Shown here: positions 30,083-57,171 of the stretch, piece by piece | How positions within the stretch are numbered: the first letter of the stretch is position 1 | How the letters are laid out: every line of letters starts with the position of its first letter | NCBI GenBank assembly: GCA_029881255.1 | Contig: JAOUMY010000006.1 | Span: 168,013-232,012 of the forward strand | Length of the DNA: 64,000 bases | Origin: Gammaproteobacteria bacterium | GTDB taxonomy: Bacteria; Pseudomonadota; Gammaproteobacteria; S012-40 | Direction: 5' to 3' | Made by a program: the position numbers and the translations under genes | Notes under the pieces: model-generated | What the model saw: the letters and a program-made list of their open reading frames with translations, nothing else | Databases searched by the model: none | What the model was told of the DNA's origin: nothing

Positions 30083-30536
30083 GTTTATGTCCTTGGTTGT
30101 GAGAATCTATTTCCACGCACCCAAGATAAAACCTCGGTTTATGCGCAGTTAACACGAAGTATAGCCTCAATAGACAAAGGTTCTAGTTAAACTGGCCCAA
30201 CTTCCTGCCATCAAAACAACCCGACCGGAATTTACTCCGCAATATAGCGTGTATGTGCGGATAGTTTTACTACCAAAACACGAGTTTGTAGCGATACCGT
30301 GCGTCTTGCCTATTCTATGGAGGAATTATTATTAAGGATATCACTTTTCGCTTATTGAATATCTCGCTATTTTCAAATCTATTCAATGCGATAGCATATT
30401 TAATTAAAGAATAATGTGTAATTCAATTCAAGCCCTACACACCCGCCAAGGCTGATGAGGTCAACCACAATTTCACCAAATTGAAAGAGGCTATAATGCG
30501 TATGTTAACCAGTTAGAAGGGATGAAAGGATGCGAT
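30083..30536. other. gene-free stretch between hydD and the Rhs island
   Basis: About 450 A/T-rich bases without a supported gene. A TATACT on the minus strand (30158-30163), 76 bases before hydD, is the only promoter-like box and has no good -35 partner. The island's right-hand breakpoint must lie in or beside this stretch; I see no clear target duplication. Confidence 0.5.
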
Positions 30537-30768
30537 AGCCGCTTCCGTTCTTAATCATGTAATCCGGTACATGGGGTTTGGAACCATAGACAAACCGGGT
30601 AACAACATTGCCGTTGGCGTCGAGTTCGGCGATGGGGTTGAGTTGGTCTTGGGTCGCTCTTGCGCGTCCTGCGCTCGCGACACTTATGCATCCATGCACA
30701 TCGTACAAAAACCCTGTACCGGCGCATCATTCAATTTCTTACCGACACGACGATCATTGGCATTGTTC
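30537..30768 (-). pseudogene. Rhs core fragment, rightmost remnant
   Basis: Translates to pieces such as [35 protein letters not shown], nearly identical to the intact core at 38230-38420, but it is interrupted by a 55-base palindromic element at 30651-30705, has a broken upstream part (a frameshifted match to NNRRVGKK) and no continuation into a tip. It is a dead copy. The same element interrupts the remnant at 32042-32246. Confidence 0.85.
30651..30705. repeat. 55-base palindromic element, copy 1
   Basis: Inserted in the Rhs core where intact copies run straight through from 'gagttggtctt' to 'aaaaccctgtacc'. It has a GC-rich imperfect palindrome (gtcgctc...gcgac) followed by the palindrome tgcatccatgca. 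It resembles REP-type intergenic repeats in size and layout. Copy 2 is at 32109-32163 with three or four differences. Confidence 0.65.
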
Positions 30769-30780
30769 TAATCTGTGGCC

Positions 30781-31551
30781 TTATTTTTCGTCGTTATGAT
30801 CGTGTCGGAGATAAACTTCGTGCTCGGGGTGTGCCTCTTCGATTGTGCGTTTGGTCGAAGCCATGCCTAAGTCTTTCGCGAGTAGGTCCAGGCCTTCAAG
30901 AATTTGCATGCGATCTGCTATTTGCAGCGAGGTAAAACACCGATCTCTGAATTCTGGATTGTTTTGAAATGATTTAATTGCACGCTTTAAAGACTTTTCA
31001 ACTTCATAGGCCGCATTTGCCTTGTGAATGGATTCTTGAGGAATGTTGTGTTGCCCTCTAAGCACACACAAGTCAATCAAATCTCTTGCTTCTACCGATG
31101 TGTCATTCCAGCGATCGGCATTCGCCAACAGCTTCTCGGTAAACGTATCGACCAAATTTAGACACGGTAGTAAGCACCAGTCCAGGTACTCTGGCGATCC
31201 TAGCGAAATTCTGCCTTCCAAAACAATCTCAAACTTGATAATAGTGTCATCGACCTTGACCGGAAATCGAATGCCGGATTGGTGGGTGCTTATATCGCGA
31301 GGAAATTCGAGTCCATCAGTTTTTAAAAACAAACCGTCATATGCACTGTCGTCTACGAGTTCCCGCAGTAACTTGTAACCTTCTCCGACAGTGCATAAAA
31401 AATCGATGTCTTTGCTCCATCGATATTCGTTAAATCGGAGTGAGAGCAGGGTGCCTCCGCCGAAGTATGCTTTGGTATCTTCAAACAGCGCAGGATTTAA
31501 AGAGAGCAAAATCTTTTGAATCTTTTGATGGTGTGGGTGATTAAATTTCAA
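30781..31551 (-). CDS. AbiEii/AbiGii-type nucleotidyltransferase (putative toxin)
   Basis: 256 residues. The nucleotidyltransferase signature FGGGTLLSLRFNEYRWSKDIDF (about 30-51) provides the G-S/T and the two metal-binding Asp, and LDWCLLPCLNLVDTFTEKLLANADRW with EARDLIDLCVL matches the Lys-containing later motifs of the AbiEii family. Such proteins are toxins of toxin-antitoxin or phage-abortive systems and transfer nucleotides, in some cases to tRNA. The gene overlaps the small gene before it by 11 bases, which suggests a coupled antitoxin. It lies within the Rhs island between two dead core fragments. Confidence 0.85.
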   Translation of the reverse strand: MKFNHPHHQKIQKILLSLNPALFEDTKAYFGGGTLLSLRFNEYRWSKDIDFLCTVGEGYKLLRELVDDSAYDGLFLKTDGLEFPRDISTHQSGIRFPVKVDDTIIKFEIVLEGRISLGSPEYLDWCLLPCLNLVDTFTEKLLANADRWNDTSVEARDLIDLCVLRGQHNIPQESIHKANAAYEVEKSLKRAIKSFQNNPEFRDRCFTSLQIADRMQILEGLDLLAKDLGMASTKRTIEEAHPEHEVYLRHDHNDEK

Positions 31552-31768
31552 GGTTAATCCAGGAGCCGAATGCAGCCGCTAATTGTTTAATAAAATCCTT
31601 CTCCGCACCCTCCGGTTCGCCAAAGACGTCTCGGTAGTTCCAGCCACGTTCGTATCTATTCAACATCTCTTCCGGTGTAAAGTGAAAAACGTCCGCTGTT
31701 TGCCAACAAATAGCATTCAGGAAGGGTAGCTGTTCTGGTGTTGGCGGGAGTTGTGCGTCAGTACCCAT
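31541..31768 (-). CDS. small protein coupled to the AbiEii-type gene (putative antitoxin)
   Basis: 75 residues from the ATG at 31768 (MGTDAQLPPTPEQLPFLNAI); a longer frame from 31810 lacks a ribosome binding site. Contains PEEMLNRYERGWNYRDVFGEPEGAEKDFIKQLAAAFGSW and no recognisable DNA-binding domain, so it differs from the classical AbiEi antitoxin. Its role as antitoxin is inferred only from the overlap, order and size. It is known that AbiEii-family genes often have a short partner of this kind upstream. Confidence 0.6.
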   Translation of the reverse strand: MGTDAQLPPTPEQLPFLNAICWQTADVFHFTPEEMLNRYERGWNYRDVFGEPEGAEKDFIKQLAAAFGSWINLEI

Positions 31769-31825
31769 AATCAATCTCAATATTCTCTTGTGGCGCAAAA
31801 TGGTCTGCACAGTTACCTTGGAGTG

Positions 31826-32023
31826 TTATCTAATCCGTGGGGAACCTTTCTGCTTGATTAGTATAGAAAAACGAACGATCAAGTTCAATATGTTGTTTTC
31901 CTCTGCTACCGTCTGATTATAAGGAGGGAGCAACTTCTTCAGAACCGCTACTTTTCGTTCTGCACTATAATGAATAACTCGTTCCGCCTCCACTCTGAGC
32001 TTCTTGTTCAAACTAGGCGACAA
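31826..32023 (-). pseudogene. remnant of a transposase N-terminus (IS3-type helix-turn-helix)
   Basis: The first 45 residues contain IHYSAERKVAVLKKLLPPYNQTVAE, the start pattern of IS3-like transposase OrfA proteins, whose usual form continues into a helix-turn-helix. After AEENN the match stops. No OrfB, inverted repeats or target duplication are visible nearby. A small scar of an insertion sequence, oriented like the Rhs genes. Confidence 0.55.
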
Positions 32024-32041
32024 CTATCCTGACACAGGAGG

Positions 32042-32246
32042 CCATAGACGAACCTTGCAACAACATTGCCGTTGACGTCGAGTTCGGCGATGGGGTTGAG
32101 TTGGTCTCGAGTCGCTCTTGCGCGTCCTGCGCTCGCGACACTTGTGCATCCATGCACATCGTATAAAAACCTTGTACTAGCGAACCATTGATCTTCTTGC
32201 CCACTCGATGGTTATTGGCGTCGATGATGTAGTGGATGTTGGTATC
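32042..32246 (-). pseudogene. Rhs core fragment with palindromic insertion
   Basis: Corresponds to the core stretch around NIHYIIDANNRRVGKKVNGALVQGF and [15 protein letters not shown], but the 55-base element at 32109-32163 interrupts it and shifts the frame. No tip follows in frame. It is the next copy after the membrane-protein gene at 32265, so it may mark the site where another tip was once attached. Confidence 0.85.
32109..32163. repeat. 55-base palindromic element, copy 2
   Basis: Same element and same position in the Rhs core as copy 1 at 30651-30705. The shared site means the two remnants descend from one interrupted ancestor by duplication rather than from two separate insertions. 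Confidence 0.65.
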
Positions 32247-32264
32247 TCAGCGAAAATTGGCTAG

Positions 32265-32555
32265 CTAAAAAAATGCGCTGACCTCTTTAATATAAAGCTG
32301 AAAATTCCCGCCCCTATCTACAAATAAGTACCAAATCGACAAGCTTATTGAAATAGCTCCAATAAATAGCATCTCAAGTGGACCATTGCCGAATATGCGC
32401 CTATTCTGGGTCTTCGGGAATTTTCTAAGCCCGTTTTTGTACATATATCTAAAACTATTAAACGTTAAATTCAATCCCATAGGAATCAAAACGAAAATTA
32501 TTCCTATCGAATAGGTTGTGTACAATATTAGGTCAAACCAATTATTGATTTGCAA
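32265..32555 (-). CDS. small two-helix membrane protein, putative immunity protein for tip 4
   Basis: 96 residues from a TTG start at 32555 ([12 protein letters not shown]), chosen because a strong Shine-Dalgarno sequence (GGAGGAG) sits 6 bases before it; an ATG seven codons earlier would place that sequence inside the gene. Two hydrophobic helices (about 6-30 and 60-82 of the protein) suggest an inner-membrane protein. It overlaps the end of the glycine-rich Rhs tip by 14 bases. I do not recognise the family. Position directly after a tip, overlap and membrane location make it a candidate immunity protein against a membrane-acting toxin. Confidence 0.6.
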
Positions 32556-33391
32556 TCGTCGCTCCTCCGGCGGCACCTATTGCTGAACCTTGTGCTCCGT
32601 AATTCGATGAAATGCGTTCGTTTATGTCACGGCCAATCATATTTGTCGGTCTAAGCGTATTTTTTCCGATTACCCCTGCACCTAAACCAAATAACCCGCC
32701 AGCTCCTCCGAGACCCGCACTGCGTAGTACTTGCGAGAAATTGAAATCGCCGCGGCAACCTTTCGCATAACTGTCAAGTTGCTGGTATGTGTTGTTTGCT
32801 GCGCCAGCTATCGCACCGAAACCAAAAGCTCGAATTGCAGTTGAACCAAAACCTCCGATAATGCCAGTCGCCCCCGCCATTGCGAGTCTTCCCAAATCAA
32901 AAGTTCCTGCCTGGTATTGGTTGTATCCCTCAAAACCTAAACCTGCAGCGAATCCGATCAATTGCGGAATGAACATTCCATTTGCGTCTTTATAGTTCAC
33001 AGGATTTGCGAAAACATACCCATACAAATTCGTATCCCCACCCTGAAACCGAATCGGGTCTTTGGACGTCCAACGGCCACTCTATGCATCATAATCGCGC
33101 GCACCAAAGCGCGTGAGTTGGGTGTGTTGGTCATAAATACCACCGGCAAAACCAAACGGCTGAAACCCTGGGTTGCTGTCCTGAATCACATTCCCGAATT
33201 CATCATAGGCCATTTGTTGGGCGATGGTGTTGATCTGTACATCAATCACCAGGATAGGGCTACCCAGATGGTCTGAGAGAATACGATAGGTGCTTCCATT
33301 CTTAATCATGTAGTCCGGCACATTGGGTTTGGAACCATAGACAAACCTTGCAACAACATTGCCGTTGGCATCGAGTTCGGCGAAGTTGTTA
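32542..33391 (-). pseudogene. orphan Rhs C-terminal module 4 with nonsense mutation, glycine-rich tip
   Basis: The core runs from [16 protein letters not shown] to FGARDYDA, where the usual CAG (Gln) is TAG (stop codon at about 33082-33084), then continues as [23 protein letters not shown] and into a tip of about 150 residues. The tip ([19 protein letters not shown] onwards) is rich in Gly, Ala and hydrophobic residues ([25 protein letters not shown]), like the hydrophobic pre-toxin regions of Rhs proteins. The upstream end at about 33385 is a junction of two core sites that share gagttcggcga. The tip could still be expressed from an inner start at the GTG/ATG-like codon near 33027. Confidence 0.7.
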
Positions 33392-33426
33392 AACGATAGT
33401 ATAGTAATTGGCGATATGGAGAATCG

Positions 33427-34479
33427 TCACAAGTTTCGAAAGTAAAATATTTTTTGGGTTCCTGGAGTCATATATTTACTACTGCCAATTTTGCACTCGC
33501 TTGCGTCTAGACCGGTAGCCCAGTTTTTGAACTCTAACATTGTGACAGGGTTCATAACACATTCATGGTGGTTTAACGGGTGTCCGAGATGCAGTAACAT
33601 GTGGCCTAATTCATGAACAAGATATGTGCCTGATAGTTCGAGTGCTTCTTGGTGGGTGTATACTTCATCTCCTCGAAGATATGACAAATATTCGTGGGAC
33701 TCGAAGAAAGGGAATGTGCTCAAGAAGGCGAATTTCTTCGAATGTGTGTTTTTCCCATAGAACGTACTTCCTACACTGATTCCGCCGCGTATTAGTGTAT
33801 GTACGTCCGTAGGTGCATATTCTGCACTGACAACGAGTTGATTGGTTATGATAATGTCGCAGGTGTTGTTTCCATAACCCAATGCTTGCCACATGAGCCA
33901 CTCATTGAGATTGCCTTCGTTTACATATAAATTTCCGCCCTTATCTTTTGCTGTTCGCCAATAAAAGAGTCGCATCAATGCGGTATTGACTAACTGATCG
34001 CTGAAGTCGCCCTTGTCTTCTAACAAAAAACCGACGGTGAATTTTTTCATTTCAACGACATATTTTTCATCTGTGAATAGGGACTCTTTGATAAACTTCT
34101 TTAGAGAATCAGTCTCTATCGATCCAACTTTCCAGTGAAAAATGTAAGGACGAAAGAATTCGATTGCCCTTCTTGCCGATAAGTCGAAAACTTCTTTTAT
34201 CGAATTCCTACTTTGTAACTTAAAGTCAACGTCCATGCCCAAATAAGTCTTAGTGTGCTTTTTTGCAAAGAATAGAATTGTTTGCAAGTCTTTATCGCTG
34301 AGCACTTTAAATTGAGGATTATCCGCGGCGCATACCATGAGTTCGATAGGGTTCTGCTTTTGTATTTTGGTATACGGCAATTCTTGAAACTCACCTGAGT
34401 CTGCTACCGCCCCACGATTCACCATTAAAATAAGAGATACAATAAAATACTTTCTTCTTATGCTCATTTTGTTAACCAT
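33427..34479 (-). CDS. exported HExxH zinc metalloprotein beside Rhs tip 3
   Basis: 350 residues from the ATG at 34479, which overlaps the stop of tip 3 (ATGGTTAA); MSIRRK at 34467 is an alternative. A hydrophobic N-terminus ([20 protein letters not shown]) looks like a signal peptide. The zinc site [13 protein letters not shown] is near residue 290, followed by HHECVMNP, which resembles the Met-turn of metzincin proteases (compare CVMN in archaemetzincins). The spacing of the third His is not the standard HExxHxxGxxH, so family placement is uncertain. In Rhs loci the next gene is normally immunity; a secreted peptidase there is unusual and might be an effector or a protective enzyme. Confidence 0.65.
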
Positions 34480-34927
34480 TGTTCGTACGTATTACATGGT
34501 CTGCTTGCCCACGGATGCCACAACAAATAAGGCCTTTTGGATTCTTCTTTCTTGCTTCTTCTTCGACTTTTTCGTAATAGTTATTTGGCGTAGTCGATTT
34601 AGTGACATCTCTAAATAGATTCTTTAGTTTGTCATCTATTCCTTTCGATATTTCGGACTCGTTTTTCTCAGTCGGGCATTGTTTAATCAGTCCCGAGCTA
34701 TCCAGAAAATTAATCGGATCTCCAAAGACATACCCATACAAATTCGTATCCCCACCCTGAAACCGAATCGGGTCTTTGGACGTCCAACGGCCACTTTGTG
34801 AATCATAATCGCGTGCACCAAAGCGCGTGAGTTGGGTGTGTTGGTCATAAATACCACCGGCAAAACCAAACGGCTGAAACCCTGGGTTGCTGTCCTGAAT
34901 CACATTCCCGAATTCATCATAGGCCAT
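34472..34927 (-). CDS. orphan Rhs C-terminal module 3, short tip with a possible HNH start
   Basis: 151 residues from the first ATG. The core part ([21 protein letters not shown] to [13 protein letters not shown]) is about 83 residues; repeat identity with other copies runs to 34955. The tip of about 68 residues is polar and charged ([29 protein letters not shown]) and ends [20 protein letters not shown]. The Cys pair followed by ADHV resembles the first part of an HNH nuclease, but the zinc/catalytic second half is missing, so the tip may be truncated. Its own translation start is unproven: orphan modules normally serve as recombination donors. The overlapping downstream gene encodes an exported metalloprotein. 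Confidence 0.6.
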
Positions 34928-34999
34928 TTGTTGGGCGATGGTGTTGGTCTGTACATTTTCTCTTAGAATCCGTGTCTATTGTATAAGCAATTTAGCGAA

Positions 35000-35557
35000 C
35001 TAGTCGCTTTCCCAGAATCTGAGAAACGATGCAGACTTTTCCTCCCAAAAGAAAATGCTACTTGATGACTCAAATCTGAAAAGATTTATACTTGTATTTT
35101 TAGTCAAAATATTTCCATTTTTACAATTGTTTAGGCTGACGTGTCCTTTTTCGCAAGCAACCTTGTAACTGCCTGGGGGCTTTACGACAATACCATACGC
35201 TTGAGCTGGCACCTTTGCATTGGATTCCTCAAGTTTTACTAGGCGCTTTTTGTCTCCGTCTGTTGATAGAAACACGATCAGACTCCAATAATTTTCATTT
35301 TCCTTGTCGATGAGTATCCATGCATCATCTACTTTTCCATCACCATTAAAATCCCCTGCAGCGTGGTATGGTTCTGGCAAAATATTCTTGTATTCTAGCC
35401 AATCCCATTTAATGTCTTGCTCACTAGGAAATCGCCATTTGTCTTCGACAAATTTGTCACCGGAATACGCAACTTCCGCCCATATAAGTGTGAAAACCAT
35501 TCCTAAAGCAGCAATTGCTAGCTTAATTTGGACACTGTAGTGGTTGAATATTTTCAT
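35000..35557 (-). CDS. exported protein, putative immunity protein for the M15-like Rhs tip
   Basis: 185 residues from the ATG at 35557 (MKIFNHYSVQ), chosen because a signal peptide (IKLAIAALGMVFTLIWAEVAYS) follows directly; the longer frame upstream adds a non-signal tail. Overlaps the end of module 2 by 35 bases. The mature part has DFNGDGKVDDAWILID, a Ca-binding-like FG-GAP or dockerin-like loop, and a C-terminal half without known motifs. Periplasmic location fits protection from a peptidoglycan-cleaving toxin. Family not recognised; the immunity role is inferred from position and export. Confidence 0.6.
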   Translation of the reverse strand: MKIFNHYSVQIKLAIAALGMVFTLIWAEVAYSGDKFVEDKWRFPSEQDIKWDWLEYKNILPEPYHAAGDFNGDGKVDDAWILIDKENENYWSLIVFLSTDGDKKRLVKLEESNAKVPAQAYGIVVKPPGSYKVACEKGHVSLNNCKNGNILTKNTSINLFRFESSSSIFFWEEKSASFLRFWESD

Positions 35558-36917
35558 ATATAGGACTAACTTTTGGTTGATATTCAATATGAATATGGTT
35601 TTTGTATGGGCTCGTTGGATAAGTTTCGACAATTACATCGTAGTCAGACCCTAAGAGCCTTCTAAGATCGCTGCCAATATTGTGTAGTTGTTTCGTGGAA
35701 AAGTTATTACCTCTTACATCAACAGCGTATCCACTGTAGTGAAGAGACCCAGGCATGTGAATTCCATCTGTCCCAGAGGTAATAACACCTTCGTATTGAT
35801 TGGAATTCTGCCTTATTGCAGAATCAATGTAGGGAAAAGTCATGTTTAAGCGATAATTTAGGCCTGAAATGTCTGCGCCGTTTGGGCCTTCTTTTATTTT
35901 TATTTTTCCAGTTGGATCAAGTAAGTTCAATCCATCCCCCAACACATACCCATACAAATTCGCATCCCCACCCTGAAACCGAATCGGGTCTTTGGCCGTC
36001 CAACGGCCACTCTGTGCATCATAATCGCGCGCACCAAAGCGCGTGAGCCTTGTGTGTTGATCATAAATACCACCGGCAAATCCAAACGGCTGAAACCCTG
36101 GGTTGCTGTCCTGAATCACATTCCCGAATTCATCATAGGCCATTTGTTGGGCGATGGTGTTGGTCTGTACATCAATCACCAGGATAGGGCTACCCAGATG
36201 GTCTGAGAGAAGTCGATAGGTGCTTCCGTTCTTGATCATGTAATCCGGTACATTGGGTTTGGAACCATAGACAAACCTTGCAACAACATTGCCGTTGGCA
36301 TCGAGTTCGCCGATGGGGTTGAGTTGGTCTTGATAAAGAAAACCCTGTACCAGCGCACCATTGACCTTCTTGCCCACACGACGGTTATTGGCGTCGATGA
36401 TGTAGTGGATGTTAGTACCATCGGCCAGTGTGGCAGCACGGAGATTACCCAGCACATCGTAGTCGTAGCTAGCGACAGTGGACGTACCGGAACGCTTGGC
36501 CAGCAACTCACCGTTGGCGGTGTAGTCGTACTGTGTAGTGCCGTATTGGGTTAAACGATCCTGTGCATCGTAGCTGGCGTTAATCGTCCCCTGAAGGTTA
36601 AAACCACCAATGCGGTTGCCATTGTCATCATAGAGGTATTGGGCAACAGAGGTGTTGTCCTTGGTGACGTTGACCAGACGACCGGCGAGGTCGTAGTCGT
36701 AGACATAGTGATGTGTGGTGCCGTTGATGGTTTCGGTTTTCTCGACAATACGCCCCAGCACATCACGGGTGAATTGGGTTTGATAGATTACACTACCTGC
36801 GGCCTTGGCAGTGAAGCTGTCGAGCTCGGCGAAGTTGTTATAGGTTTGGTCAGTTGTAACAGAACCTAATACCGTGCCGAGGAGTACGCTACTGCTGAGG
36901 TCGCGATCGAGTACCAA
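35523..36917 (-). CDS. orphan Rhs C-terminal module 2 with M15-like peptidase tip
   Basis: 464 residues from the first start codon; the frame stays open upstream to past 36967. Residues 1-335 are Rhs core (many YD repeats, [28 protein letters not shown]), more than 95% identical by eye to module 1. The tip of about 126 residues carries GSLHYSGYAVDVRG and YKNHIHIEY, the SxHxxGxAxD and HxH zinc ligands of M15/VanY-type D,D- or L,D-peptidases, so the toxin would cut peptidoglycan peptides. It starts just after the module 1 immunity gene, the typical place for a displaced tip. Confidence 0.75.
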   Translation of the reverse strand: MVLDRDLSSSVLLGTVLGSVTTDQTYNNFAELDSFTAKAAGSVIYQTQFTRDVLGRIVEKTETINGTTHHYVYDYDLAGRLVNVTKDNTSVAQYLYDDNGNRIGGFNLQGTINASYDAQDRLTQYGTTQYDYTANGELLAKRSGTSTVASYDYDVLGNLRAATLADGTNIHYIIDANNRRVGKKVNGALVQGFLYQDQLNPIGELDANGNVVARFVYGSKPNVPDYMIKNGSTYRLLSDHLGSPILVIDVQTNTIAQQMAYDEFGNVIQDSNPGFQPFGFAGGIYDQHTRLTRFGARDYDAQSGRWTAKDPIRFQGGDANLYGYVLGDGLNLLDPTGKIKIKEGPNGADISGLNYRLNMTFPYIDSAIRQNSNQYEGVITSGTDGIHMPGSLHYSGYAVDVRGNNFSTKQLHNIGSDLRRLLGSDYDVIVETYPTSPYKNHIHIEYQPKVSPIYENIQPLQCPN

Positions 36918-36967
36918 ATCACCGGCTTGGGTGAGTAGGCCGTCGTTGTCGTAGGCGTAGCCGATGG
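35938..36967 (-). repeat. long direct repeat of Rhs core, copy in module 2
   Basis: About 1,030 bases nearly identical to 37988-39018. Left end at the core codons for GYAYDNDGLL, right end at GYVLGD. Such long identity allows recombination that would swap the M23 and M15-like tips. Shorter copies of its right part are at 34728-34955 and 33014-33391. Confidence 0.9.
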
Positions 36968-36993
36968 GATTGTAGCTAGGTGAAGCGGTAAGA

Positions 36994-37518
36994 CTAAAAA
37001 GAATAGTGAGATATGCCTATTTTTCCGCCTGCATATCGTACAGTAAATATCGGTGTCTCGAATTTACATTGCCCATGTGTTTTTCCAATATGATCGGGTT
37101 TTAAGTAGATGTCGTAGTATCCGCTAAAAAGATCGTTTTCGGATATCTGTATCTGATAGTTTCCTCGGTATTTTTCTAAAAACGAATATAGAGAAACAGA
37201 AAATTTATTTTGTAGCTTAGTGATACACAGCTCTATGTCTTTATGACTAGGCTTCCGAAATAAACTCTGGTGAATGTAACTGTTCTCGTTATATATGTCG
37301 CCTCTAATATTATCAAAATCTATACGTGTATCCGAATCTATAACGCCGTCATTAGAAAAATAATCACCAACTTTTGCATAATCCTTTATTTCAACTGAAT
37401 GCAAAAAATTGGATACGATTTTCTTTACTTCCTGTAATTGTTCAATGGAATTGGAGCCGCTAGCACTTAGTGACTTAGCGAATAATAGAAAAAAAATGCA
37501 ACCCAATTTTATATTCAT
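36994..37518 (-). CDS. exported protein, putative immunity protein for the M23 Rhs tip
   Basis: 174 residues from the ATG at 37518 (MNIKLGCIFFLLF); a GTG at 37536 that overlaps the tip's stop (TAGTG) is an alternative. The N-terminus is a signal peptide (cleavage near LSASGS). The mature part begins SNSIEQLQEVKKIVSNFLHSVEIKDYAKVGDYFS, a pattern seen in NTF2-like folds, but I do not recognise the family. Immediate position behind the M23 tip and export to the periplasm, where an M23 enzyme would act, make it a likely immunity protein. This is inference. Confidence 0.65.
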   Translation of the reverse strand: MNIKLGCIFFLLFAKSLSASGSNSIEQLQEVKKIVSNFLHSVEIKDYAKVGDYFSNDGVIDSDTRIDFDNIRGDIYNENSYIHQSLFRKPSHKDIELCITKLQNKFSVSLYSFLEKYRGNYQIQISENDLFSGYYDIYLKPDHIGKTHGQCKFETPIFTVRYAGGKIGISHYSF

Positions 37519-37535
37519 GTTTGTGGCCTTTGTCA

Positions 37536-39491
37536 CTAAGGACCATCACGCTTTGAAGATGACGGATATGGTGAGGCGTTTCGAAAGTGATCGAATGGGT
37601 CTACACGTCGACCAGGCTGGAAAAATTCATAGTGTAGATGACCGCCAGTGCTTCTTCCGCTTAAATCCGTTACGCCAATTTGTTGACCTTCCGATACTGC
37701 TTCTCCAACAGAAAGTTTACAAGCAACATGTGAATACGATGCGGCGGAACCGTCAGCATGTTGAATAGTTACTGAATTCGCTAGTCCATTTGCCCCCTGC
37801 CTTATCCTATAGACATAGCCAGAATCACTAGCGACAACTGCACCATTCACTGGATTAGCAAAATCGACTCCAGTGTGTGCCTCCATTCCATTTCCTGTTG
37901 GATTTTGTCTTTGACCATATCGCGATGTTATTGGTCCAGACGCTGGGAGTGTTGTCAAGCCTATCGGATCAAAAAAATTAACCGAATCCCCCAACACATA
38001 CCCATACAAATTCGTATCCCCACCCTGAAACCGAATCGGGTCTTTGGACGTCCAACGGCCACTCTGTGCATCATAATCGCGCGCACCAAAGCGCGTGAGT
38101 TGGGTGTGTTGATCATAAATCCCACCGGCAAAACCAAACGGCTGAAACCCTGGGTTGCTGTCCTGAATCACATTCCCGAATTCATCATAGGCCATTTGTT
38201 GGGCGATGGTGTTGGTCTGTACATCAATGACCAGGATAGGGCTACCCAGATGGTCAGAGAGAAGTCGATAGGTGCTTCCGTTCTTAATCATGTAATCCGG
38301 TACATTGGGTTTGGAACCATAGACAAACCTTGCAACAACATTGCCGTTGGCATCGAGTTCGGCGATGGGGTTGAGTTGGTCTTGATAAAGAAAACCCTGT
38401 ACCAGCGCACCATTGACCTTCTTACCCACACGACGGTTATTGGCGTCGATGACGTAGTGGATGTTAGTACCATCGGCCAGTGTGGCAGCACGGAGATTAC
38501 CCAGCACATCGTAGTCGTAGCTAGCGACAGTGGACGTACCGGAACACTTGGCCAGTAACTCACCGTTGGCGGTGTAGTCGTACTGTGTAGTGCCGTATTG
38601 GGTTAGACGATCCTGTGCATCGTAACTGGCGTTAATCATCCCCTGAAGGTTAAAACCACCAATGCGGTTGCCATTGTCATCATAGAGGTATTGGGCCACA
38701 GAGGTATTGTCCTTGGTGACGTTGACCAGACGACCGGCGAGGTCGTAGTCGTAGACATAGTGATGCGTGGTGCCGTTGATGGTTTCGGTTTTCTCGACAA
38801 TACGTCCCAGTACATCACGGGTGAATTGGGTTTGATAGATTACACTACCTGCGGCCTTGGCGGTGAAGCTGTCGAGCTCGGCGAAGTTGTTATAGGTTTG
38901 GTCAGTTGTAACAGAACCTAATACCGTGCCGAGGAGTACGCTACTGCTGAGGTCGCGATCGAGTACCAAATCACCGGCTTGGGTGAGTAGGCCGTCGTTG
39001 TCGTAGGCGTAGCCGATGGCGTCGTTGTTGACGGTGATGGCATTTACCCAGAAATTATTGTCATATGAGAAGGCGACTGTACCGTTGATATCGCCAGACC
39101 ATGAGGTTTCTGTTGGTAGCATGCCGTCGTACTGATAGCCGAGTGTGGTCGCGGCGTTAGAAACACCGCGCAGCTGGCCGGTCATGGGATTGTAGTCATA
39201 CGTGGTCTGTTCCGTTGGCGTGTCCAACGTTGTTAGACGGCCGCCGTTGTCGTAGATGAAGTCGATGCTCTGGCCATCGGGACGGACGACTTGGGTGAGA
39301 TCCTGGTCACGGTTATAGAAATAACGCGTATAGTTAACCCCGGCAACGACTTGTGGTGGGGTGTATTCGGTTTCCAGATTGACGCCGTTGTAGTTAAACA
39401 GATGCGCTTCTCTGCCTGGTGGAACGATGGAGGCCAGATTACCGTTTTCGTCGTAACTGTATTCATGGCATTTGTTTTTCAACTTTGCCAT
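37536..39491 (-). CDS. N-terminally truncated Rhs/YD-repeat protein with M23 peptidase tip (module 1)
   Basis: 651 residues, far shorter than full Rhs proteins (over 1,300), because the sequence begins inside the YD-repeat barrel (YSYDENGNLASIVPPGREAHLFNYN) only 14 bases after hydG. The core ends at [24 protein letters not shown] and VNFFDPIGL, near residue 512. The tip (about 513-651) is an M23/LytM domain: HTGVDFANP (zinc His at about 539 and Asp) and GHLHYEF (HxH at about 618-620), with SRYGQRQNP at its start. It should hydrolyse peptidoglycan peptides. No export or PAAR domain is present. The ATG is directly preceded by a GAAA-loop hairpin and lacks a Shine-Dalgarno sequence. Confidence 0.8.
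   Translation of the reverse strand: MAKLKNKCHEYSYDENGNLASIVPPGREAHLFNYNGVNLETEYTPPQVVAGVNYTRYFYNRDQDLTQVVRPDGQSIDFIYDNGGRLTTLDTPTEQTTYDYNPMTGQLRGVSNAATTLGYQYDGMLPTETSWSGDINGTVAFSYDNNFWVNAITVNNDAIGYAYDNDGLLTQAGDLVLDRDLSSSVLLGTVLGSVTTDQTYNNFAELDSFTAKAAGSVIYQTQFTRDVLGRIVEKTETINGTTHHYVYDYDLAGRLVNVTKDNTSVAQYLYDDNGNRIGGFNLQGMINASYDAQDRLTQYGTTQYDYTANGELLAKCSGTSTVASYDYDVLGNLRAATLADGTNIHYVIDANNRRVGKKVNGALVQGFLYQDQLNPIAELDANGNVVARFVYGSKPNVPDYMIKNGSTYRLLSDHLGSPILVIDVQTNTIAQQMAYDEFGNVIQDSNPGFQPFGFAGGIYDQHTQLTRFGARDYDAQSGRWTSKDPIRFQGGDTNLYGYVLGDSVNFFDPIGLTTLPASGPITSRYGQRQNPTGNGMEAHTGVDFANPVNGAVVASDSGYVYRIRQGANGLANSVTIQHADGSAASYSHVACKLSVGEAVSEGQQIGVTDLSGRSTGGHLHYEFFQPGRRVDPFDHFRNASPYPSSSKRDGP
37988..39018 (-). 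repeat. long direct repeat of Rhs core, copy in module 1
   Basis: Partner of 35938-36967. Differences are scattered single bases. Beyond the left end the two copies diverge: module 1 continues into more core, module 2 into unrelated bases after a shared 'gatgggattgtag' that also occurs at 39181-39200, suggesting an internal deletion formed module 2. Confidence 0.9.
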
Positions 39492-52898: not shown

Positions 52899-53330
52899 TT
52901 AAAACGATTGCAGCATCACGTCAAACTGAACTGTCTCTTCACCAAGGGTAAACATCACGTCTTCAAAATCCGGTGGTATTATCCTGACCTGGTAGTTGCG
53001 TATAAAACCAAAACTCTCCTCGGGAAAACCGATCCAGCTGTGATCCATAATTTCGTTATTGTTACGATCATGAAAGACAAACGCTGCGTATCTTCCCGGC
53101 GGAATATCTGTTAGCAGCAGATCCGCATGATTCTCCTGTATAGACGCCTCCGTCCGAATACTGATCTTGTCGATTTGCTTGGGAAAGTGTGTTTTTTCAG
53201 CTTCGTGAAACAAGGCCACTCTCACCTTTCCTTGCTCTCCGTCGATGCCGGAAACACGAATGCGTATTTCCGCCGCGGAAATATTGGACGACACCAGTAA
53301 CAGAAAACACCAAGCGAGTAATTTATTCAT
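52899..53330 (-). CDS. exported DUF2141 family protein
   Basis: 143 residues from the ATG at 53330 (MNKLLAWCFLLLVSS), overlapping the permease stop by 8 bases; a longer frame from 53345 is less likely. Signal peptide then a beta-sandwich DUF2141 domain: IRVSGIDGEQGKVRVALFHEAEK and DIPPGRYAAFVFHDRNNNEIMDHSWIGFPEESFGF. The DRNNNEIMD stretch resembles a calcium-binding loop. Function unknown. It is the last gene of the ABC exporter operon and may be a periplasmic partner. Confidence 0.88.
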   Translation of the reverse strand: MNKLLAWCFLLLVSSNISAAEIRIRVSGIDGEQGKVRVALFHEAEKTHFPKQIDKISIRTEASIQENHADLLLTDIPPGRYAAFVFHDRNNNEIMDHSWIGFPEESFGFIRNYQVRIIPPDFEDVMFTLGEETVQFDVMLQSF

Positions 53331-55686
53331 ATGCCAGGGCCTCACGTGTAGAAATGCGAATCGCGTTACGTGATGGCAGATGACTGGCGAACCAGCAGAA
53401 AAACACCGTCGTCACGACGGTTATCGCTACCCCGGCAGGACTGATACTCAAGGGAAGGTCTGCGCCGCCCATGATGAGATCACCCCAGAATCGCGCACCC
53501 AATTGACTCAGGGGCCAGGACAATATCAATCCCAAAGCCACTCCAATCATTCCCAGCAACATACCTTCGCTTACAAAGAGTCGATAAATATGTCCAGGTG
53601 TTGCGCCGATGGCGCGTAACACACCTATCTCACGGGTGCGTTCCAGCACGTTAATCCCCATTACCGATGCCATGCCTAAGGCACTTACGCTCAACACCAT
53701 TAAGGCGAACACTACAAAGCTCATCAATATAATATTGAGGTGATCGTAGAGTATCTTGACCCGTTGCTGCTGCGACTCCACATCGAGCACCGGCAGTGCA
53801 GAGTCGGCAACGATTTTTTCTATCGCAGTCTTGAGCTGTATCACGCTCGCATAGCGACGATCTTGCGCGGCAAACATCAAGCTATTGACGAGATGCTCAG
53901 GATTGAACATCGCATCGTATTGTTGTTGGTCTATATAAAACTTGGTGGTATCGAATTCTTCTACCAGACCGACTAAGGTCAGCGAAATCGTTTTTCCGCC
54001 AATACCAAGACTCAACTGCGTGTCCATGTCCGGGAAACCGTAATCCTTCCATGCCTGGGTATTCATCACCAGTTCCTGCGCAGCGCCGCTCAACCATCTA
54101 CCCTGTAGCATATCCGGTCGGCGCAATTGAGTATCAAACGGCAATGCGGTAATACCAATGCCATTTCCGGCCGTGAATATCTCGGACTGCAAAACGCCCT
54201 TTCCGCCACTCCAGGCTTCGATACGTTTGACGCCTTCAACATCTTCAAACAGCGGCAATAATTTTTCGCGACTTACCGGTGCCTTGAGTACCAGTTTGAC
54301 GTCGTAGCGCATGCTATCGCTAGTCTGTTGCAACATTTCAAATAGCGAATGTCGAACATTGAACCCGGCATCAAACATCGCCACGCCAAACGCCATGCTC
54401 ACTAAGGTGACAATTAATCGGCTCTTTCTGCGCATGCTATTGCGAACCGCAAACACGATGCTACCAGGTAAGTACGATGTGATAGACGACGCACTTCTGA
54501 TTTTTTGCATGGAAGCATCCAGACCATATTCTCCGATACCTTGCTTCACTGACATCGCAGTACCACGAATAATCGTCGATAGAGAAAAGAGCAGCGGCAA
54601 TAACAGAGCCGCAGCGATCAAAACCAGATAGACCTCAAACGGTAATTGGGTTGTCAGTATCTCGAAATTCAATTGCAACGCCGTGCCATAGGCCAGACCA
54701 TATCCTGACGCAATCGCCAGTGGAATGCCGATAGCGCCAGACAACACACCTAATGACACAACCATTAACAGATAAATCACAAACACCTGAGAACGTCGGC
54801 CACCGATCGCCTTTAACACTGCAATCTGTCGCAATTGCTTAGACAATAGCGAGGCCATCAATTGCGACACCAACACCGCCGCCATCACAAAGGCCAGAAA
54901 ACCGATACTGCCCTGTAACAACAACAAACTATCGAGCTGCCATTGATGTGGGTGGGCATTGAAATTTGGCGTTGATACGATGCGTAACTTCTTGCCCTGT
55001 CGCGCCATTGCTTCGCGCAACTGCGTTACGGCAACTGCGACATCGTCTTTCGAACCAACATTACGAAAGCGCACTATCATACGTTGATATGGCGACTCTC
55101 CGGTAAACTGACGATAGGTGTCGCTATGCATATAGCCAAAGATAAAATGATCCTGCGTAGCAGGTGGCTGAGCGGGATCGAAGGCGATGCCGCTGACGGC
55201 AATCTCATGCGTCGAGTTATTCATTCGTACTCTCGGCGCAGACCCCACTTTGATATTGGAAATCAGCCGGCCATTGCGTTCGATCAACATGCTTCCCGCT
55301 GCGGGTATTTGCTCGCCTTCCTGGTGGTAAACATGGGCAAGAGCGGTATGAGAAAAGTCATACAGTCCATATAGTCTCAGCGGCACCCATAAATCCGGTT
55401 GTATCTCAATGCGGTGCACTGAGTATTCGCGAAACTCGGCGGCGTCAACATAGGAAAGCGCATTCACCCACGACGCGTCACCCGCTACGAAATCATCTGA
55501 AACGAGAACAACATGTGGCGGTGCCGTCTCCAGGAAATTTTTCGGCATGTCCTGCGATAGCACCGTATAGGAAACCAGAATTGCACCTACGCCCCAAATT
55601 CCGATCACCAGTGCAAATACCACCAGTGCGAATCGCCCAGGCTCATAACGAATATCGCTAATCGCTTTTTTTAATAACATATTCAT
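53323..55686 (-). CDS. ABC transporter permease, FtsX/MacB-like with two FtsX domains
   Basis: 787 residues. An N-terminal helix (about 18-40), a long extracytoplasmic region (about 45-265), FtsX domain 1 (about 268-375, with LRQIAVLKAIGGRRSQVFVI), another extracytoplasmic domain (about 430-650), and FtsX domain 2 (about 660-780, with TREIGVLRAIGATPGHIYRL). This eight-helix duplicated layout is shared with permeases that move lipids, peptides or macrolides across the inner membrane or work as mechanotransmitters. It overlaps the ATPase gene's stop by one base (TAATG-type). Confidence 0.9.
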   Translation of the reverse strand: MNMLLKKAISDIRYEPGRFALVVFALVIGIWGVGAILVSYTVLSQDMPKNFLETAPPHVVLVSDDFVAGDASWVNALSYVDAAEFREYSVHRIEIQPDLWVPLRLYGLYDFSHTALAHVYHQEGEQIPAAGSMLIERNGRLISNIKVGSAPRVRMNNSTHEIAVSGIAFDPAQPPATQDHFIFGYMHSDTYRQFTGESPYQRMIVRFRNVGSKDDVAVAVTQLREAMARQGKKLRIVSTPNFNAHPHQWQLDSLLLLQGSIGFLAFVMAAVLVSQLMASLLSKQLRQIAVLKAIGGRRSQVFVIYLLMVVSLGVLSGAIGIPLAIASGYGLAYGTALQLNFEILTTQLPFEVYLVLIAAALLLPLLFSLSTIIRGTAMSVKQGIGEYGLDASMQKIRSASSITSYLPGSIVFAVRNSMRRKSRLIVTLVSMAFGVAMFDAGFNVRHSLFEMLQQTSDSMRYDVKLVLKAPVSREKLLPLFEDVEGVKRIEAWSGGKGVLQSEIFTAGNGIGITALPFDTQLRRPDMLQGRWLSGAAQELVMNTQAWKDYGFPDMDTQLSLGIGGKTISLTLVGLVEEFDTTKFYIDQQQYDAMFNPEHLVNSLMFAAQDRRYASVIQLKTAIEKIVADSALPVLDVESQQQRVKILYDHLNIILMSFVVFALMVLSVSALGMASVMGINVLERTREIGVLRAIGATPGHIYRLFVSEGMLLGMIGVALGLILSWPLSQLGARFWGDLIMGGADLPLSISPAGVAITVVTTVFFCWFASHLPSRNAIRISTREALAYE

Positions 55687-56396
55687 TAGCCGACCTCCTT
55701 TAAGCCATACTCCTGCTTCAGGTCTTCCGTCACCTGACCATCGTGTAGGCGAACAACACGCGAAAACCTGTCCAGCGACGACTGTTCATGGGTTACCACA
55801 ATGACGGTCTTGCCCTCATTCACCAGCGTTTCAAATAACGACATAATGTCATTCGCCGTCGTACTGTCGAGATTGCCCGTCGGTTCGTCGGCGACGAGAA
55901 CAGGAGAATTATTGGCGAGTGCGCGAGCTATTGCCGCACGTTGCTGCTCACCACCAGACAATGCTGCCGGAAGCTTTTGTGCGTGCTGCGCAATCCCAAC
56001 CCGCGTCAATAATTGCGTGATACGCGCTGCACGTTGGCTTTTTGGAATCACATTAACAAACTCCATTGCCAGGGCCAGATTCTCGGCAATCGTCAGGGTA
56101 GGAATGAGTTGGAAGAATTGAAACACGATCCCAATATTACTCCCCCGCCAGGCCGCCAGTTGGCTCTCATTCATGCGGTGTATATCACCGCTATTGACCT
56201 TCACCACGCCCTCGGACGGATGATCAATACCAGTAAACATGTTCAACAGCGTCGATTTGCCGCTCCCAGAGCGCCCAACGATGGCTACAAATTCACCTGC
56301 GCCGATCTCCAGCGAGATCTCCCGCAAGGCATGAAATCGTCCCGCAGCGGCGTCATACCAACGGGATACCTGTTGTAGTTGAATCAGTTTTTTCAT
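55686..56396 (-). CDS. ABC transporter ATP-binding protein (MacB/LolD-like)
   Basis: 236 residues. Walker A GRSGSGKST (about 41-49), Q-loop VFQFFQLIPT, signature LSGGEQQRAAIARAL near 145, Walker B VLVADEPTGNLDS near 167, and H-loop VTHEQS. Powers the permease encoded next. First gene of the three-gene exporter operon; its promoter region contains the tandem palindromes at 56472-56515, and a divergent PadR-type gene lies on the other side, so repression by that regulator is likely. Confidence 0.95.
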   Translation of the reverse strand: MKKLIQLQQVSRWYDAAAGRFHALREISLEIGAGEFVAIVGRSGSGKSTLLNMFTGIDHPSEGVVKVNSGDIHRMNESQLAAWRGSNIGIVFQFFQLIPTLTIAENLALAMEFVNVIPKSQRAARITQLLTRVGIAQHAQKLPAALSGGEQQRAAIARALANNSPVLVADEPTGNLDSTTANDIMSLFETLVNEGKTVIVVTHEQSSLDRFSRVVRLHDGQVTEDLKQEYGLKEVG

Positions 56397-56471
56397 TGCT
56401 GCCTCCTGGATAGGGATATCGTTTCAGTCGTTATGGTGGGCAGAGCCTACAGATCCAGAGCAGGCCTCCGC

Positions 56472-56515
56472 TATACCGTATAGCTGCTATACAGTATAGT
56501 GTTATCGCGTATAGT
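56472..56515. promoter_or_regulatory. tandem palindromic operator between the ABC exporter and PadR genes
   Basis: Two perfect 13-base palindromes of the form CTATACnGTATAG at 56472-56484 and 56488-56500, starts 16 bases apart, and a third degenerate copy at 56503-56515 with an intact right half. A TATACT -10-like box for the exporter on the minus strand (56494-56499) overlaps the second copy. The regular spacing, about one and a half helical turns, suggests cooperative binding of dimers. Confidence 0.7.
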
Positions 56516-56634
56516 TAGTAAACCTTGAGGGGAAAATTTTATGTAGCATGCCTATAATGCTCCGGGTTCTGTCCCGACAACGGCCATGCGACAAATTTAG
56601 ACAGCTGATATAACACGCGGATAAACAACTACTT

Positions 56635-57171
56635 ATGTCTACTATTGATTTGATTGTGCTGGGCATTTTGCTCAGAGAAGCGCAAAACGCCTATGAAGTG
56701 GTGCGCTTCATCCGTGAAAAAGAGGTGCATCGCGTACTCAAAATAAGCGAACCGGCGGTCTTCAAAAGTTGCCGACGTCTGGCTGAGGGCGGATACCTGG
56801 ATGGTCAGACCATTCGTAGCGAAGGCGTGCCCGATAAGGTGGTTTATGCGGTTAATGCCAAGGGGGAGCAATATTTTTCCGAACTGATGAAGCATTTCGC
56901 TGCGAACTTCAAACCCTTTTATCTCGACTTTAATACGGTATTGTGGAATATCGATCAGTTAAAAGAAGAAGATGCGCTCAATTCCTTACGAACACTTCAG
57001 GAACAACTACACGAGGCATATCTCTGGGTTAGCAAACACGACGAAGAAGTCAGAAGTTTTCTGCCGTTTGGACCAAGACAAATCGTAAAACAATACACCA
57101 TGACAATCGGTGCGCTAAAACAATGGATTGATGAAGCAGTTGAGGACTATTCACATAAAAATACGCGCTAA
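56635..57171 (+). CDS. PadR family transcriptional regulator
   Basis: 178 residues. The N-terminal winged helix (about 1-85) follows the PadR pattern: STIDLIVLGILLREAQNAYEVVRFI, then ISEPAVFKSCRRLAEGGYLDGQ and DKVVYAVNAKGEQYF. The C-terminal half (about 90-178) is the helical dimerisation region of the Vir-like subgroup. PadR proteins are usually repressors released by small molecules. It is divergent from the ABC exporter operon and the region between holds the palindrome array, the best candidate for its operator. No ligand can be inferred. Confidence 0.88.
   Translation: MSTIDLIVLGILLREAQNAYEVVRFIREKEVHRVLKISEPAVFKSCRRLAEGGYLDGQTIRSEGVPDKVVYAVNAKGEQYFSELMKHFAANFKPFYLDFNTVLWNIDQLKEEDALNSLRTLQEQLHEAYLWVSKHDEEVRSFLPFGPRQIVKQYTMTIGALKQWIDEAVEDYSHKNTR

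Follow-up and report, generated by a model that had tools for sequence, protein, structure and literature searches.

The padR gene and its divergent neighbours

The window analysed here, a stretch of 64,000 nucleotides from a gammaproteobacterial contig, carries the gene of a 178-aa PadR-family regulator (56635..57171, plus strand) and, facing away from it, three genes on the minus strand. The latter encode an ABC exporter ATPase of the MacB/LolD/FtsE type (55686..56396), an FtsX/MacB-type permease of 787 aa with two FtsX stretches (53323..55686), which resembles the ADOP permeases at a score below their cut-off, and lastly a secreted DUF2141 protein (52899..53345). Because the ATPase, permease and DUF2141 genes overlap or abut, they presumably form one operon. 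DUF2141, a domain of unknown function, has been recorded alongside crtG in gene clusters for carotenoids (PMC5989583). A regular array of short palindromes sits between padR and the exporter genes.

On its own, the window protein reaches 23.2 bits against the Pfam PadR family (PF03551), below the cut-off of 27, so its family membership is assigned by way of its orthologs, which score 29.6 (68% identical) and 35.7 bits (61% identical). Its AlphaFold model, whose confidence is moderate (pLDDT 68), shows a winged helix followed by long C-terminal helices, and a fold search with it returned PadR structures first: the B. subtilis PadR-DNA complex, smu.1604c, Rv1176c and VanR. Whole-chain TM values are low (about 0.4-0.5), while the winged-helix part alone superimposes on 6abt_A with a TM of 0.82 by target. 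As modelled, the protein thus has the PadR fold with a predicted helical C-terminal dimerisation region, and the PadR identity given to this gene in the preliminary description is borne out. All three orthologs have the same helix-turn-helix stretch, KISEPAVFKSC, in keeping with an unchanged operator.

Anatomy of the palindromic array

The array reads CTATACCGTATAG-ctg-CTATACAGTATAG-tg-TTATCGCGTATAG and was correctly described beforehand as two perfect and one degenerate 13-base palindromes at a spacing of 15-16 bases; its span is 56471-56514, the numbers 56472-56515 given earlier being one base too high. The palindromes, to which no strand is assigned, lie at 56471..56483 (palindrome 1, perfect), 56487..56499 (palindrome 2, perfect) and 56502..56514 (palindrome 3, which has three mismatches and retains TAT-N5-ATA). 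Their centres, at 56477, 56493 and 56508, are separated by steps of 16 and 15 bp. At 10.5 bp per turn this puts neighbouring sites 154-189 degrees apart, as had been supposed when they were placed on different faces of the DNA, and brings centres 1 and 3 (31 bp, 343 degrees) to one face again. A further perfect palindrome, TATAGCTGCTATA, occurs between sites 1 and 2 (56479-56491), since the array can also be read as a series of half-sites that follow one another at 7-8 bp (steps of 8, 8, 8, 7 and 8 bp).

Palindromes 2 and 3 overlap TTTACT-18-TATACT (56493..56522, minus strand), the best promoter-like match in the direction of the exporter: palindrome 2 contains its TATACT and palindrome 3 falls in its spacer. 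The claim that the palindromes overlap the exporter promoter therefore stands as far as position goes, although the match itself is weak (9 of 12 consensus positions) and had no counterpart at this position in G006, the closest of the related loci described below. For padR, the TATAAT at 56553..56558 (plus strand), some 77 bases before the start codon, would be a possible -10 element; it has no good -35 and is absent from the promoter-scan output.

The canonical PadR operator, ATGT-N8-ACAT (PMC4517056), does not occur between padR and the exporter genes; its four matches in the window are all found at 30.5-38.3 kb. Elsewhere in the window, direct repeats, four to five in number and diverged (300 nt, 81-94%; 137 nt, 61-89%), occupy the minus strand of 30515-38469 and encode C-terminal pieces of RHS/YD-shell proteins (Pfam TEN_YD-shell and RHS_repeat), one of them with an M23 peptidase after it. 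By their sequence these repeats resemble Rhs-type cassettes strung together, with alternative 3' ends.

Related loci and a common site

Orthologs of the regulator were found in G006 (68% identical), in G007 (61%) and, as a fragment at a contig edge, in G045, which belongs to another family. No further ortholog turned up in 95 relatives, 369 genomes of the class, 398 of the phylum, 321 relatives of G045, plasmids or viral contigs. A more distant full-length PadR, 29% identical, is encoded on a Monoglobus pectinilyticus plasmid (L043:2501-3452), where it overlaps yjdF; the yjdF family is known for an azaaromatic-binding riboswitch, and this overlap is a possible hint to the class of ligand.

G006 has the same divergent locus, with a syntenic ATPase gene, a permease 51% identical to that of the window and DUF2141. 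Its array, CTATACTCAATAT-ca-CTATAGCGTATAG-ctg-CTATACTGTATAG-tg-TTATCGTGTATAG, has one extra 15-bp unit; palindromes 1, 2 and 3 of the window align with CTATAGCGTATAG, CTATACTGTATAG and TTATCGTGTATAG, respectively. Over the array, 36 of 38 positions are identical, versus 15/50 and 8/50 in the ungapped flanks, which are unalignable. Palindrome 3, the poorly matching one, has its counterpart in G006 and is therefore conserved rather than decayed. What appeared to be a second G006 array, on contig C56, was rejected as a second copy, being the same locus on an overlapping contig. Contigs C56 and C165 overlap by about 150 bp (L033:1-152 and L030:1-151) at an assembly break beside the operator region, and arrays at contig ends can thus be counted twice.

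The arrangement in G007 is different, in that two separate pairs are present. One, GTATACTGTATAG-tg-ATATACTGTATAT, with a step of 15 bp, lies within a near-consensus padR promoter (TTGACA-17-TATACT, 11 of 12 positions), and the TG of its spacer doubles as an extended -10. Judged from the sequence, these sites clearly sit in the predicted padR core promoter. The other, CTATACAGTATAG-ca-ATATACGCAATAG, also at 15 bp, precedes a downstream operon of DUF2141, MMPL(RND) and LolA-like genes. At L006:4602-8283 these genes for DUF2141, an MMPL/RND exporter and a LolA-like protein stand in a row, a second exporter type that follows a putative PadR operator pair and would be under the same regulator. G045 has just one copy, CTATGCCGTATAG, between the end of padR and DUF2141; an array is thus not obligatory. 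The number of units varies between species (1, 2, 3, 4), and a DUF2141 gene is present at all four loci, which makes it the constant partner. Both features had escaped the preliminary description.

Across the 12 palindromes of these loci, every one of the 24 half-sites keeps its TAT or ATA; the C/G positions, inner and outer, are less constant, and the centre varies freely. This leaves TAT-N5-ATA as the invariant core, as against the canonical ATGT-N8-ACAT. Successive units mostly follow at 15 bp; all four such pairs have a two-base spacer of TG or CA, and the 16-bp pair has CTG. The sample is small, only four loci being known, two of which share one ancestral array. Since the palindromes are 15-16 bp apart and their half-sites 7-8 bp, an everted reading is conceivable, in which the PadR dimer would sit on pairs of the form GTATAG-N2/3-CTATAC and the description as 13-bp palindromes at 15-16 bp would be misleading. 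The half-site spacing, the perfect palindrome between sites 1 and 2 and the constant spacers all suit such a register, and a GTAT-N7-ATAC span would come nearer to ATGT-N8-ACAT. However, G045 has an isolated 13-bp palindrome, and every array consists of whole palindromes only, with an even number of half-sites, TAT first and ATA last. We regard the everted register as unlikely and keep the 13-bp palindrome as the unit.

Rarity and specificity of the sites

A lone perfect 6-1-6 palindrome is unremarkable: the window has 21, compared with a mean of 17.4 in simulated sequence. In contrast, pairs of palindromes 13-20 bp apart, with the same arms or otherwise, were never encountered in 3.84 Mb of simulated sequence. 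The frequency of single palindromes of this length and the gain or loss of whole 15-bp units might suggest that the array arose by chance or is a non-regulatory tandem repeat. Nevertheless, the scarcity of pairs, the conservation of the array between unalignable flanks and the existence of two separate pairs in G007 make this explanation hardly credible.

The genome-wide motif search that had been proposed earlier was carried out, and exact CTATACNGTATAG has two matches in the 4.97-Mb genome, both in the array beside padR. A loose form of the motif is not enriched genome-wide, with 135 sites at up to 2 mismatches versus 215 for the reversed control. Of the single-mismatch sites in the same genome, among them L003, L004 and C2:388742, the two inspected, L003 and L004, are both inside coding sequence. 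The pair pattern matches G000, G006 and G007, at padR/exporter loci only (reversed control, 0), and of the 369 class genomes sampled the other 368 gave no match; the genomes that carry it are all three that have a full-length PadR ortholog. As the pattern was designed on the carrier genomes, the value of this test lies in its absence elsewhere. Patterns for 15- and 16-bp pairs with up to 3 mismatches gave no further locus in the carriers. Given that no further pair loci emerged and that the inspected single-mismatch sites are within genes, the regulon looks local.

These results also bear on whether the palindromes belong to a different regulator encoded elsewhere, padR being merely one member of its regulon. 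Winged-helix families other than PadR could recognise a palindrome built like TATACNGTATA. On the other hand, the genome has no exact sites beyond these, and the sites track PadR across genera and across two exporter types, so that a foreign regulator seems very improbable. In three related bacteria this regulator again has the same palindromes at its side, and for this reason we read the array as the site of that regulator.

A model for control of the exporter

Our main reading, to which we give a probability of roughly 80%, is that the array constitutes the operators of the adjacent PadR protein, an autoregulating repressor of the DUF2141-linked exporter that would bind as one dimer per palindrome and be released by a ligand. 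Seen from the sequences, the loci look like PadR-controlled exporter modules in which exporter and regulator genes share the predicted sites, through one divergent array in the window and G006 and, in G007, through two separate pairs, one ahead of padR and one ahead of the DUF2141-RND operon. In the simplest model, two or three dimers, each on a 13-bp palindrome and turned to roughly the opposite face of the helix from its neighbour, would cover the core promoter of the exporter-DUF2141 operon, and RNA polymerase would thereby be blocked. The regulator probably limits its own gene as well, a control of padR that had been missed at first. Release of PadR might be brought about by a hydrophobic or envelope-related ligand, presumably the substrate of the exporter. 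Multi-dimer binding is already known for LmrR, and cooperative binding on opposite faces is therefore plausible here too.

Repression rather than activation is what we infer from the position of the sites. In the window, the array would lie roughly 50-90 bp upstream of a possible padR start, which could suit an activator or a dual regulator, and the wider PadR group includes activators, among them PrhP and AphA. The G007 palindromes, however, are inside the -35/-10 region of padR and directly before the ribosome site of DUF2141, positions typical of repression; an activating or dual role for this PadR is thus quite unlikely.

The association of DUF2141 with FtsX/MacB-type as well as RND-LolA partners suggests that it may take part in the export or handling of a hydrophobic compound. 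An uncharacterised domain is thus linked with ABC and RND exporters, which are unrelated, and with a single predicted regulator of both. More tentatively, these proteins could represent a PadR subfamily with a new 13-bp code, TAT-N5-ATA, on which dimers form a ladder at 15-16 bp and on alternate faces, the number of units (1, 2, 3, 4) setting how sharply export of a DUF2141-linked hydrophobic envelope compound is induced. With one to four units each, the natural arrays are a simple means of learning how repression depends on the number of units and on helical phase. None of the five 13-mers tested is printed in the literature searched, where the site of this PadR subfamily has no description; a testable operator is now proposed.

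Comparison with known systems

Like the canonical operators of PadR and LadR, the sites described here are short inverted repeats of the kind read by a winged-helix dimer. The arrangement had been called different from that of classical PadR operators. This is true of the sequence, which departs from ATGT-N8-ACAT, but less so of the use of several dimers per promoter. In the case of LmrR, several dimers on one promoter, 2:1 binding and an operator across the -10/-35 region are documented (PMC4534193, PMC5428041), and the arrangement is consequently not unprecedented. The LmrR-lmrCD system of Lactococcus lactis, in which LmrR represses a multidrug ABC exporter, also shares with our locus a PadR gene beside an ABC exporter and autoregulation, which is a prediction here. 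It differs in its operator (ATGT-N8/10-ACAT versus TAT-N5-ATA); moreover, the exporter of our locus is of FtsX/MacB type with DUF2141, and the palindromes are discrete and in tandem at 15-16 bp.

A non-canonical motif is likewise known for cdPadR1 of Clostridioides difficile, whose TACT-N11/12-AGTA occurs twice in its promoter and is bound in larger complexes (PMC5050560). Two inverted repeats in one promoter are a common trait, whereas the motif, its longer AT-rich core and its many genomic sites set cdPadR1 apart. Among NCBIfam models, padR_acidobact (TIGR03433) and the ADOP permease (TIGR03434) match the window PadR and permease best, and with 30 versus 101.8 and 109.6 versus 622.3 bits, far below the curated cut-offs, the two proteins are not members; on a PadR-ADOP pairing, the literature searched offered nothing usable. 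Pairs of dimers on one long operator are found with QacR and DtxR (named in PMC5428041), which belong to unrelated protein families and serve as models of the two-dimers-per-operator principle. All in all, the kind of system is already known; what is new is the sequence of the operator, the regularity of its tandem layout and the link to DUF2141.
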